Positions 5,693 to 57,599 of a stretch of 64,000 nt of DNA are shown in pieces. The number at the start of each line of letters is the position of its first letter. The stretch's first letter is position 1. The translations under genes were made by a program, and so were the position numbers. The stretch is from Persicirhabdus sediminis (GTDB lineage Bacteria > Verrucomicrobiota > Verrucomicrobiia > Verrucomicrobiales > Akkermansiaceae), in contig NZ_JAENIM010000039.1 of the NCBI RefSeq assembly GCF_016595495.1, forward strand, positions 62,001-126,000, given 5' to 3'. The notes beneath the pieces were generated by a model. The model did not search any database and was not told the origin of the DNA. It saw only the letters and a program-made list of their open reading frames with translations.

Positions 5693-5768
5693 GCCGGTTT
5701 AGCTCAGTTGGTAGAGCAACTGATTTGTAATCAGTAGGTCGTCGGTTCGAATCCGACAACCGGCTCCA
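5693..5768 (+). tRNA. tRNA-Thr(TGT), copy 1
   Basis: A 76-nt cloverleaf with encoded CCA. Acceptor stem GCCGGTT/AACCGGC, anticodon stem CTGA/TCAG with loop TTTGTAA (anticodon TGT), T-arm GTCGG-TTCGAAT-CCGAC. It reads ACN codons ending in A, and probably G. The sequence is identical to the copy 274 bp downstream. Confidence 0.97.
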
Positions 5769-5966: not shown

Positions 5967-6042
5967 GCCGGTTTAGCTCAGTTGGTAGAGCAACTGATTT
6001 GTAATCAGTAGGTCGTCGGTTCGAATCCGACAACCGGCTCCA
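5967..6042 (+). tRNA. tRNA-Thr(TGT), copy 2
   Basis: All 76 nt match copy 1, including CCA. The flanks are similar but diverged (for example TGAAGATACTGCGCCCGCC is shared, while the linker to the tRNA differs), showing an old tandem duplication of promoter, tRNA and terminator with selection keeping the tRNA intact. Confidence 0.97.
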
Positions 6043-53111: not shown

Positions 53112-54863
53112 TTAGTCCTGAATGTGCATTTGCTTGCTAGACTCGATGATGTGGTAGCTGTGTGAAGCAATCATTTCGAGGTGATTGTTGGTATTCACAT
53201 TGAGCATTTCGAGTTTCACTTTGCCATTGTCGGCCATGCGCTTCATCGCAGCTTTGTTGAACTTCTTGATGAGTTCTTTGATTTCAGCACGCATGGTATT
53301 TGCTTCATTCATCATCGCATCGCTAACTTCATGCAATACAAGTGTCTTGCTGTGCAGGATGATTTTCTCCACTGCATGCGCGAGGTCACGGATGGCGTGG
53401 ATTTGGTCAGCCTTGAAGACGTGATCTTTGTTGTACATGCGCTCGGCAATCTTGATCAGGCGGTAGATGGAGTCTGAGCTTTCTTCCAGCTCAGCGGTGA
53501 CACGCAGCATGTGAGTGATGCGCTCGGCATTCTGCATACCCACTTCGCGAGCTGAACAACGTACCAGGTATTCGGTGATGTCGTGCATCATGTGGTCGGC
53601 TTCATCTTCCATCTTCTTCAGCTTGGTGACGAGATCTGAGAGATCTTCATCAGGAGCTTCAAAGACGCGGATGTAACCTTTGTACATGTCGTAACAATGA
53701 TCAGCCATGTTGTGGATAGCTTCTTCAGCTTCAGCGAGGTTGAGTTCGCCCATGTCAACGAGACGCTGGGAGATGTACTGAATGCGTGGTTTTTCGCCAT
53801 TGCTGCCTTCGTCCTTAACCCACTTGGTCACAGTTTTAGCGATCACTGGTACAAACCATACCAGGAGGAAAATGTTGAGCATGTTGAAGACGGTGTGGAA
53901 AATCGCAGTAGCAAATGCGACTTCGCTCTTACCAAAGTCACCTTTAGCGCTCTTGAGGTTTTCAGGCAGCATGCTGGCGATTTCCCAGACCATGTTGGTC
54001 AGCGGAATGAAAAGCACCAGCGCCCATATCGAGCCAATAATATTGAATAGGAAGTGAGCTCGAGCAGCTCGTTTGGCGTGCACGTTGGCGCCAATGGAGG
54101 CGAGCCAAGCGGTGATGGTGGTACCGATGTTTTCGCCGAGTACCACAGCTGCGGACAGCTTGAAGGCATCCATGGCGTTATCGCCGAGCCAGCCGTTCAT
54201 CGCACAGGTGATGGTGATGGCCATGGCGGCTGAGGATGACTGCACGGTCAGCGTGAGGATCACACCAACAATCATGAAGAGAACGTAGGATCCGTAGCCG
54301 TAACCATTGATCGCAGCAATTACACCTTGGATCATTCCAGCTACTGAGTCGTCGCCACCTTGCAGGCCACCTCTGAGGTCAGGAACGGCTCCTTTGAGCA
54401 GGTCGAGACCGAGGAAAAGAAGACCAAAACCAATCAGAGTTTCACCAAATGAACGCACCTTGTTTTTGCCAACAAAGAACATTGGCAGACCCACACCGAT
54501 GATTGGCAGGGCGATCTTGGCGACACTGAATTTACCAATGTAGGCAATGATCCAGGCGGTGATGGTGGTACCGAGGTTGGCACCCATGATCAAGCTGATG
54601 GACTCAACTAAGGTGAGCAGGCCAGCATTAACAAAACTCACCACCAGAACGGTAGTGGCTGATGACGACTGCACCATGCAGGTCGTCAGGAAGCCAGTGA
54701 AAATACCGCTGGCGCGGTTTTTAGTCATGGTGGCTAGCGCGATGCGCATGCTGTCACCGGCGACTTTTTGCACCCCTTCCGACATGATTTTCATGCCGTA
54801 GAGGAAGATGCCTAAGGCACCGAGAATTTGTAAGATGGTTGCTATTGATGACCAGATATCCAT
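53112..54863 (-). CDS. Na+/phosphate cotransporter (NptA/YjbB type) with PhoU-like domain
   Basis: 583 residues. The N-terminal half has two inverted Na/Pi repeats, each with a QSSSA motif (MVQSSSATTVLVVSF and TVQSSSAAMAITITC) and a GANLGTTITAW or GENIGTTITAW segment, as in SLC34-like bacterial carriers. About eight helices. The C-terminal 220 residues are a PhoU-like helical domain (HNMADHCYDMYKGY, KMEDEADHMMHDITEYL, ITHMLRVTAELEESSDSIYRL). Moves phosphate across the inner membrane, with PhoU tuning activity. No PHO box was found in the 400 nt upstream. Confidence 0.93.
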   Translation of the reverse strand: MDIWSSIATILQILGALGIFLYGMKIMSEGVQKVAGDSMRIALATMTKNRASGIFTGFLTTCMVQSSSATTVLVVSFVNAGLLTLVESISLIMGANLGTTITAWIIAYIGKFSVAKIALPIIGVGLPMFFVGKNKVRSFGETLIGFGLLFLGLDLLKGAVPDLRGGLQGGDDSVAGMIQGVIAAINGYGYGSYVLFMIVGVILTLTVQSSSAAMAITITCAMNGWLGDNAMDAFKLSAAVVLGENIGTTITAWLASIGANVHAKRAARAHFLFNIIGSIWALVLFIPLTNMVWEIASMLPENLKSAKGDFGKSEVAFATAIFHTVFNMLNIFLLVWFVPVIAKTVTKWVKDEGSNGEKPRIQYISQRLVDMGELNLAEAEEAIHNMADHCYDMYKGYIRVFEAPDEDLSDLVTKLKKMEDEADHMMHDITEYLVRCSAREVGMQNAERITHMLRVTAELEESSDSIYRLIKIAERMYNKDHVFKADQIHAIRDLAHAVEKIILHSKTLVLHEVSDAMMNEANTMRAEIKELIKKFNKAAMKRMADNGKVKLEMLNVNTNNHLEMIASHSYHIIESSKQMHIQD

Positions 54864-55260: not shown

Positions 55261-55288
55261 AAAAAACGAGGCACCCGTGGGTGCCTCG
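55261..55288 (-). terminator. Terminator of dsbD
   Basis: CGAGGCACCC (55267-55276) pairs with GGGTGCCTCG (55279-55288), with an A-run at 55261-55266 giving a U-run on minus. It lies 50 nt after the TAA at 55338-55340, which supports that the gene ends there and not at the UGA at 55599. Confidence 0.9.
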
Positions 55289-55337
55289 TCTGGATTCAGC
55301 AGTGGATTTCGCCACTAGCTAGATAGGATGATGAATA

Positions 55338-57599
55338 TTATTTGGCAGCCAGCTCGAGCGCCTTGAGCACATCGTCTGGGCTGATATTTTGTGGCAGCAT
55401 GATCGCTGGCTTCGACGGATCCGCTGGGAAGATTAAGTTGGTTGGCAAACTACTTCGGCCCACTCTGGCGAGATCATTTTTGATCGCCTCGTTACCGTCG
55501 GTCCAGTCAGCGACGACTAGGGCGACATTAAGTTCTTCGAGTTTGGCAGTTACGGCATCTGATGAGAAGACACGCTTCTCGTTGGTTTTACAAATCAGTC
55601 ACCAATCGGCGGTGTAATCCAGCCAGACAATCCTGCCTTTTGACCGGCTGAGCTCGACCACTCCGGGGTACCAGCTGTGTTCGCTAGCAGTGGTGGGCGC
55701 GCGGTAGCTGGTGGCATCTTTGGCCATCAATAAACCAGCGCTGGCGACGATGACGGGGAAACCAATGCCCCAGACGTATTTCTTGGATTTTTTGGTCACT
55801 GGAGTGCCATAGCGTCCAAATGCCCACGCGGCTAGTGACAGAATCACCAGCGCCATGATCAGCCAGAATGCGCCGTCAGTTCCTGTGATGTTGATGAAGC
55901 TGAGGTAGAAATAGGCGGCAGTGGCAAAGAGGGCAAATGCCATCAGCTGCTTGAAGGTTTCCATCCACGCGCCTGGGCGAGGTAGTTTCTGAATGAGCTT
56001 GGGCATGAATGCCAGCGCCACGTAAGGCAGGGAAATGCCGAGCGCAAAGATGGTGAATAAGAACATGCCGGTGAGCGGCGGTTCTTTTAAAGTAAATGCC
56101 AAAGCTGAGCCGAGGAAGGGTCCGCTACATGGGGTGGCAATCAGCGTGGTGAGTACGCCTGAATAAAATGAACCAGAGTAGCCTTTTTTCATCTGTAGCT
56201 GGCCGCCAGCGCTAGTCAGCGAGGTGCCAATTTCAAAAACTCCAGCCATGCTCAGACCAAACAGGAATAGCAAAATAATCATGCCCGCTAGGAATGGTGG
56301 CTGGGTGAGTTGCTCGCCCCAGTTGATGTCCTGACCGTAAAAATGGATCAGGCCAAAAATCGTGCCGGCCAGAATCCACATCGATGCCACCAGACCAGTC
56401 ATGAAGACCAGCCCGTGCAGGCGGATCTTAGTGGCGTCTTCGCCAGCTTGTTGAACAAACCCCATCACCTTGAGGCCAAGCACAGGAAAGACGCAGGGCA
56501 TTAGGTTGAGCAGAAATCCGCCAATGAACATGAAGATGACGGCGGTGAGAATGGTGAGTTCTTTTTCTTCTTCACCACTTAGCAAAACGTAGGGGACCTT
56601 GGCGTTGACGTCGTAAAGTTTAGCGGCAGCCGCACGGTCAGCCTCGCTAGCAATCTGGCCAGACCCGTGAGCTGAATTTCCAGCTGGCTGATCTGCTGAA
56701 GCCGTGGTGGCTGCGGTGTCATTAGTAGCTGGCTGATCTTCAGCGCCAGCGAGTGGTAAATTTACCAGCAATCCGTGTTCATCAAAGCCAGCTAGGATTT
56801 TCCCTTTGCTGGCGAGAATGCCTTCCAGTTGGCTGGCTGGACCAGCATCTACATTGCGCTCGATGGTCAAGGTGCCAGCGGCAGCGTCCCACACCTGTGC
56901 GGCGCTGGCTACGGTGAGTTTTTTGTCGTCGTAATAGTACAGAGATTCAAGAGCAGATAAATCAGCGCCAGCTAGCGTGATGATGAAATGGCTGTCACTC
57001 TGGCTAGCTGAAATCTGCAATGATTTCTGCCACTCAGCTGGCTGGATAGGTAGTTCATTTCTAGCCGTCTCAATGGTGGCTGCGTTGTCATCGTTGAGCA
57101 CTGATTCGCCACCATGCTTCAGTGTGATGGAAAATTCACCACTCTGCGGCATGTCGCACGCCGAGTCGTTACATACTTGCCAGCCTAGCTTGAGGTCAAT
57201 CTGGCTCTGCTCACCGACGAGCTCAGCTGGCGAGGTGATCTTAGTGAGGAAATAGTTTGTATTTTCGTAGGTATATGATGTTTCGCCAAACAAAACCGTG
57301 GTGTGTGGCACGGGCCATTCTACTGGCTCGTGGGTAAATCCAGCGGGCAACTGCCAATCAAATTCTAGCGGTAAGTTAGAGCCGCCAGGGTTCTTGTAAT
57401 ATGAATGCCAGCTGGCGGAATGGGAGATCTCAGTAGCGACGATGAAGCTGGAACCAGCGGAAATCTGATCGTGGTCACTGAGTAGCTTGACGGTGGTTTT
57501 TTGCGCCAGCTTATCGCCAAAGCCAAATTGGCCAAAGCTTGCTGTAGCGCTGAAAATCAGCCAGCTGAAGGTGATGGTTAGAAGTTTGAAAGCAGTCAT
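55338..57599 (-). CDS. dsbD: Thiol:disulfide interchange protein DsbD with probable selenocysteine (in-frame UGA)
   Basis: 753 residues if UGA at 55601-55599 is read as Sec667. It moves electrons across the inner membrane to periplasmic thiols. A signal peptide opens the protein. The N-terminal immunoglobulin-like domain has C143 and C148 (VCNDSACDMP). The membrane domain has the conserved C369 (NLMPCVFP) and C491 (IATPCSGPF). The thioredoxin domain has LDYTADW-U-L-I-C670-K, where other DsbD have DWC-x-x-C. After the UGA the frame continues with ADWTDGNEAIKNDLARVGRSSLP (cis-Pro) to a TAA just before a terminator. Selenocysteine is inferred from position, intact downstream frame and a hairpin after the UGA. 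A nonsense mutation is the main alternative. Confidence 0.85.
55559..55598 (-). promoter_or_regulatory. Candidate bacterial SECIS element in dsbD
   Basis: Directly after the UGA on the minus transcript: CUGAU pairs with AUCAG (outer stem) and GAGAAG pairs with CUUCUC (upper stem, 6 bp), leaving apical loop CGUGU. The loop starts 24 nt after the UGA and has G at its second position, as the published bacterial SECIS pattern demands (16-37 nt, G in the first two loop positions). A 13-nt unpaired stretch lies on the 5' side only. Confidence 0.75.

Follow-up and report, generated by a model that had tools for sequence, protein, structure and literature searches.

DsbD of E. coli, from which the electron order used below is taken, has three domains with three redox pairs. 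In the consulted sections of one review, the consensus model of the bacterial SECIS (bSECIS) has a loop of 3-9 bases, an upper stem of 4-16 pairs, a spacing of 16-37 and a G as the first or second loop base, with G or U frequently the next one (PMC13188914). The same sections count 119 selenoprotein families, and the nearest entries to the present locus in their table are a thiol:disulfide interchange protein (PF13098, UxxC) and TsoB (PMC13188914). The thiol:disulfide interchange selenoprotein with PF13098 and UxxC is recorded for Deltaproteobacteria in the parts consulted of PMC1794560 and PMC13188914. Among the GOS sequences, 22 marine sequences with UxxC were grouped as 'Trx-like 2 (Thiol disulfide interchange protein)' and assigned to cd02953, according to the excerpt consulted of PMC2398784. 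Selenoproteins were also reported in Planctomycetes, with the candidate list placed in a supplement to the text consulted (PMC4807772).

The window, which is the whole stretch of DNA analyzed here, comprises 64,000 nucleotides of the Persicirhabdus sediminis genome (contig NZ_JAENIM010000039.1, positions 62,001 to 126,000). Standard gene calling closed a dsbD open reading frame on its minus strand after 666 codons, at a UGA (55601-55599). Reading through this UGA as selenocysteine (Sec) extended the frame by 86 codons to a TAA (55340-55338), and gave the following features.

55338-57599, minus strand: dsbD with an in-frame UGA read as Sec, 753 residues (translation with TGA as U; Pfam DsbD_N, DsbD_TM and Thioredoxin_7)
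57138-57458, minus strand: DsbD N-terminal domain, residues 48-154, with C143 and C148 (PF11412, E 6.4e-11)
55908-56543, minus strand: DsbD transmembrane domain, residues 353-564, with C369 and C491 (PF02683, E 1e-16)
55425-55676, minus strand: C-terminal thioredoxin-like (gamma) domain, residues 642-725 (PF13899, Thioredoxin_7, E 9e-10)
55599-55601, minus strand: in-frame UGA, codon 667, at the first Cys of the CxxC (from the sequence, the translation and the UGA of relatives)
55341-55598, minus strand: 86 codons of coding sequence past the UGA, subject to purifying selection (dN < dS in the compared pairs with finite dS)
55264-55291, minus strand: terminator-like hairpin with a T tail about 50 nt past the TAA, 12 pairs, 7 of them G-C

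DsbD_N, DsbD_TM and a C-terminal thioredoxin domain, the three parts taken to define membership in DsbD, were all present. The gamma domain matched PDB chains of DsbD (best E 1.3e-5), and the score against NCBIfam PRK00293 (DsbD) was 114.3 bits, under the cut-off of 330. The full-length DsbD match contained a single TGA, in the motif ADW-U-LIC-K with the active site U667-L-I-C670. The three redox pairs C143/C148, C369/C491 and U667/C670 were invariant in 14 aligned Sec homologues, in which U was shown as C. The residue before Sec was Thr or Asn (ADT-U, ADN-U), not Trp (ADW-U), at L046 (G129), L053 (G065), L054 (G043) and L059 (G021). Selection after the UGA is illustrated by the close pair L019/L020, with a dN of 0.020 and a dS of 0.366.

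The position of the terminator-like hairpin at 55291-55264 suggests that the TAA, not the UGA, marks the end of dsbD. Another strong terminator-like hairpin with a T tail (57699-57670) was located between an upstream glycine-zipper gene (57989-57723) and dsbD; therefore, dsbD is probably transcribed alone. The same-strand gene downstream (53112-54863) codes for a Na/Pi cotransporter with a PhoU domain. Since a search of the whole genome returned only one DsbD match, the Sec-DsbD is probably its main or only DsbD.

The initial annotation had described a hairpin following the UGA and proposed it as a bacterial SECIS element.

55564-55580, minus strand: putative SECIS core, stem GAGAAG (55580-55575) with CUUCUC (55569-55564) and loop CGUGU (55574-55570); from the fold, covariation and codon resampling
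55559-55598, minus strand: whole hairpin, including a lower stem CUGAU (55598-55594) with AUCAG (55563-55559); folds in the window, lower stem not conserved

The stems, the CGUGU loop, the distance of 24 nt from the UGA to the loop and the G at loop position 2 were all confirmed in the sequence. When 55550-55605 was folded with RNAfold, both claimed helices formed, together with three outer pairs, at -11.9 kcal/mol. The annotation was also right that the hairpin satisfies the published rule (stem of at least 4, loop of 3-9, spacing of 16-37, G first or second in the loop), with a loop of 5, an upper stem of 6, a spacing of 24 and G in position 2. Its argument that such pairing over codons is not expected without selection did not hold, because 62.8% of the 2742 TGA triplets in the window (both strands) satisfied the same rule. 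Compliance with the rule was rejected as stand-alone evidence for this reason. Stems of 6 or more pairs closing a 5-base loop followed 4.2% of the TGA triplets, and 0.15% had one at a spacing of 24. In a shuffle test of the fold, 19 of 200 shuffles folded equally well (z -1.34), and together with the frequency of rule matches this makes the case from one sequence alone weak. Rfam at gathering scores reported three tRNAs only in the window and no match to a SECIS family. Two tRNA-Thr (TGT) genes, at 5693-5768 and 5967-6042, lie about 200 bases apart and have equal Rfam scores.

Relatives of the gene with names were found in Akkermansiaceae, other Verrucomicrobiales and Planctomycetota. In a sample of 195 genomes of the same family, judged from these named relatives to be Akkermansiaceae, 191 gave a DsbD match, and at least 35 of the 195 had exactly one TGA within it; the same UGA was also present in the Planctomycetota relatives. 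In a phylum sample of 387 genomes, an inner TGA occurred, among the matches listed, in the window gene only, and a search of viral contigs found no relative of the gene. The full upper 6-bp stem was present at 30 of 35 family UGA loci (29 of 34, plus L059) versus none of the 15 Cys loci of the family. The stem was imperfect at five UGA loci (L021, L028, L031, L034 and L046), where 4 or 5 of the 6 pairs formed. A second set of 80 named loci, which shares some genes with the family set (L075 and L057 among them), gave a full stem in the same register at 8 of 10 UGA loci versus 0 of 70 Cys loci. L080 and L081 are the other two UGA loci of this set. At L080, from Kiritimatiellia, the hairpin UGAAGC-CGUGU-GCUUCA is shifted by one base in register, and the minimum-energy fold is another one. 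L081 has several short alternative stems and is a weak locus, with N in the contig and a long branch. The G column of the loop was invariant in all 34 UGA sequences. The initial annotation would have been contradicted by pairing that is not conserved in homologues keeping the UGA; instead, the upper stem and the loop G were conserved with the UGA and the stem was lost with Cys.

The genome of P. sediminis (4.17 Mb, 47 contigs) was searched for Sec machinery. SelA (504 bits), SelB (264 bits, cut-off 242), SelD (370 bits) and tRNA-Sec with the anticodon TCA were found together in this one genome. Across the family, SelA was found in 30 of 35 genomes with the UGA versus 40 of 160 others (P 2.6e-11, a value that ignores relatedness). 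SelA was not found in five of the UGA genomes (G059, G094, G109, G114 and G150), where assembly gaps are a possible cause, though G059 is given as 96% complete. G059 and G150 gave a tRNA-Sec match over the cut-off. The same model also exceeded this threshold in G146, a genome in which SelA was not detected, and in 5 of 14 control genomes. The selD gene (L048:1531-1533, contig 29 of G000) itself has an in-frame UGA, in CGGUASK, followed by a SECIS-like hairpin with a 7-bp stem, the loop AGUUU and a spacing of 32. This loop shares G-then-U at loop positions 2-3 with the CGUGU loop of dsbD.

Covariation was analyzed in an alignment of 34 UGA sequences, 29 of them distinct, in which a 7-pair upper stem occupies columns 21-27 and 33-39. 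Pairing was seen in 94.1% of cells of this stem versus 29.6-69.5% when the partner was slid. Thirteen cells were changed on both sides, versus a shuffle mean of 3.1 with none of 500 shuffles as high, although these cells are not independent events because the sequences are related. The observed paired percentage and the covariation score were likewise reached by 0 of 500 shuffles. The number of pairs with both-sided change was only 2, which was not above the shuffles (356 of 500 as high), indicating that the covariation signal sits in two pairs. The innermost pair was C-G in 23 and G-C in 6 distinct rows, a swap that goes with silent Val codons GUG/GUC, and the outermost pair was U-A in 18 and C-G in 7 rows, with silent changes in Asn (AAU/AAC) and Ser (UCA/UCG). 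In the planctomycete L079, Glu GAA occurs with Phe UUU whereas the others have GAG with UUC, and both changes are silent. Thus, the compensatory changes that the annotation had proposed to look for in related genomes were found, including silent double changes. The window sequence itself has a C-A mismatch at the outermost family pair (column 21/39).

The same alignment bears on whether a SECIS at this site would function as a larger two-stem structure with CUGAU/AUCAG at its base, as the annotation had drawn it. The lower stem is present in the minimum-energy fold of the window, but it was paired in only 25.5% of cells among the 29 distinct homologues, and it was rejected as a part of the conserved element. 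Another base stem, formed by columns 6-10 with 47-51, was paired in 74.5% of cells; its columns are also conserved codons, and just two of its five pairs form in the window. We therefore regard a two-stem functional unit as improbable, and take the conserved core of the putative SECIS to be a stem of 6-7 bp that closes a loop of five bases (type NGU..) at a distance of 24 nt from the UGA.

A conserved stem within a coding sequence could also mirror a conserved protein. The UGA might be read as a standard amino acid such as Trp or Cys, or be passed by readthrough independent of Sec, with the RNA bases merely reflecting the residues N-E-x-R-V-F-S. This motif is indeed conserved in the protein, and the aligned DsbD PDB chain likewise carries Glu at the corresponding position; hence, Glu there is not special to the Sec forms. 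Lys was found at this position (+7) in all 15 Cys homologues of the family set; a change from Lys to Glu was considered as a mark of the Sec form and dropped, because Glu is present in many Cys homologues of the second set as well as in the PDB chain. The codons, however, are constrained beyond the residues. When amino acids were fixed and synonymous codons were drawn from each gene's own usage, in 18 representatives (one per 85%-identity cluster of the 60-base stretch starting at the UGA), 1.74 full stems were expected and 14 were seen (P 3.5e-14). The Glu codon at the stem site was GAG in 34 of 34 sequences versus 706 GAG and 828 GAA gene-wide, and Ser at the stem site was UCN in 32 of 32, notwithstanding that AGC/AGU are common. 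The Pirellulaceae locus L077, which has Cys and the same residues NEKRVFSN as L076, has lost the outer stem and keeps three inner pairs. These results, with the pairs kept by silent double changes and the tRNA-Sec with a TCA anticodon in the genome, make decoding without Sec highly implausible. Judged from relatives, chance pairing of the upper stem is excluded.

Alternatively, translation could truly stop at the UGA (which might also be a sequencing error or the mark of a pseudogene), with the gene ending before the thioredoxin active site and a hairpin formed by chance. This reading agrees with standard gene calling and with the commonness of rule-fitting hairpins after TGA triplets in the window, but it is scarcely credible given the recurrence of this UGA in 35 or more of the 195 genomes, the open and selected frame of 86 more codons, the terminator after the TAA, the Cys of relatives at the place of the UGA and the full Sec machinery in the genome.

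We conclude that the hairpin is very probably a bacterial SECIS within the dsbD coding sequence, with Sec predicted to be inserted at UGA 667. The proposal of the initial annotation is thus supported in its main point, by the upper stem that tracks the UGA and by the full Sec machinery. The conclusion is drawn by sequence analysis from the UGA, the hairpin, its covariation, the Sec machinery, the intact downstream domain and the stem loss in Cys homologues.

From this reading we infer SelB binding, Sec insertion itself, the electron route and the benefit of Sec as follows. SelB with GTP and Sec-tRNA(Sec) would bind the upper stem-loop and place Sec at UGA 667, and the ribosome would then continue through the 86 residues that complete the gamma domain. 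The full-length product would have a selenosulfide pair, U667-x-x-C670, as the redox pair of its gamma domain. By analogy to E. coli DsbD, electrons may pass from C369/C491 to U667/C670, then to C143/C148 and to periplasmic substrates. The gain from Sec could be faster exchange or easier rescue from over-oxidation.

The evolution of Sec and Cys forms was analyzed with two trees. In a large tree of 133 rows, built from the membrane and gamma regions after removal of the hairpin columns, 25 of 27 Sec rows grouped together with 7 Cys rows. A careful tree, with 44 rows picked from the 133 and the hairpin columns masked, needed six Sec/Cys changes, and on it the AU test rejected a single clade of Sec rows, from which L080 had been excluded (P 2.5e-6). 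The seven nested Cys rows formed four groups: L056/L058 (G004, G016), L052/L055/L065 (G028, G005, G017), L072, and L077. SelA was searched for and not found in G004, G016, G005, G017 and G028. The site sequence of L072 is that of L043 of G040, where SelA is present. This pattern indicates that the replacement of Sec by Cys fits machinery loss in two of the four cases, and that such loss is not required in at least one. The Planctomycetota genes L076, L079, L126 and L077 branched within the Akkermansiaceae Sec-DsbD clade, adjoining L023 (L126 being outside the 44-row tree), suggesting transfer between phyla.

We lean, at somewhat better than even odds, toward the view that the full-length three-domain DsbD with Sec in the gamma domain is a lineage of its own in Akkermansiaceae and Planctomycetota, probably with inter-phylum transfer. 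It would have undergone several Sec/Cys exchanges, in which Cys always stands without the full RNA stem; two of the four cases are from genera that yielded no SelA. If this view is true, transmembrane export of reductant would be selenium-dependent in the window genome, because the Sec-DsbD is the only DsbD detected there.

DsbD is a membrane protein that takes reducing power out of the cell, and here Sec would be in its active site, which suggests a selenium dependence of an outward thiol-reducing path. Because gene calling stops at 666 residues and the catalytic thioredoxin site is lost, DsbD would be mis-annotated across the clade. Sec and Cys relatives with codon constraint linked to the UGA also offer a clean natural experiment on the requirements of a bacterial SECIS and on the loss of Sec.

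The dsbD hairpin adds a new, well-supported case to a known type of signal, the bacterial SECIS. We take cd02953 to be the DsbD gamma domain. If so, Sec in the gamma domain was already seen in 2008, in the GOS group Trx-like 2, whose members carry Sec in place of the first CxxC Cys, probably within the same domain as here (excerpt of PMC2398784). That excerpt is without full-length DsbD, host lineage or SECIS comparison, unlike the present analysis. The literature already contains UxxC thioredoxin-like proteins with Sec, among them a thiol-disulfide interchange group. In the consulted selenoprotein table of PMC13188914, there was no DsbD with a single Sec in the C-terminal domain. Searches of literature on DsbD and on selenoproteins of Verrucomicrobia and Akkermansiaceae gave, among the matches listed, no identifiable description of the Sec-DsbD lineage, and the full-length lineage with Sec/Cys switching was not found in the parts of that literature consulted.

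Compared with the bSECIS model in the consulted sections of PMC13188914, the dsbD element lies within all limits (loop 5, stem 6, G2 then U, spacing 24, intragenic just past the UGA), while its stem sequence is particular to its own gene lineage. The Deltaproteobacteria PF13098 protein is a UxxC thioredoxin-like selenoprotein, as is the protein here, whereas Thioredoxin_7 (PF13899) is here fused to DsbD_N and DsbD_TM, as far as the consulted entries describe the former. TsoB (NF045694), a rhodanese/DsbD fusion-like selenoprotein, has a DsbD-like membrane part in common with the dsbD product, which matched it partially (141.8 bits, residues 346-711). Assignment to TsoB was rejected, as this score is under the cut-off of 805 and the gene has one UGA versus two Sec; in the consulted table, the two Sec of TsoB form UxxxxU (PMC13188914), in contrast to the single UxxC here. 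With DsbD of solved structures, the protein shares the gamma domain match, and with E. coli DsbD the make-up of three domains and three redox pairs; it differs in having, by our reading, Sec instead of the first gamma-pair Cys.
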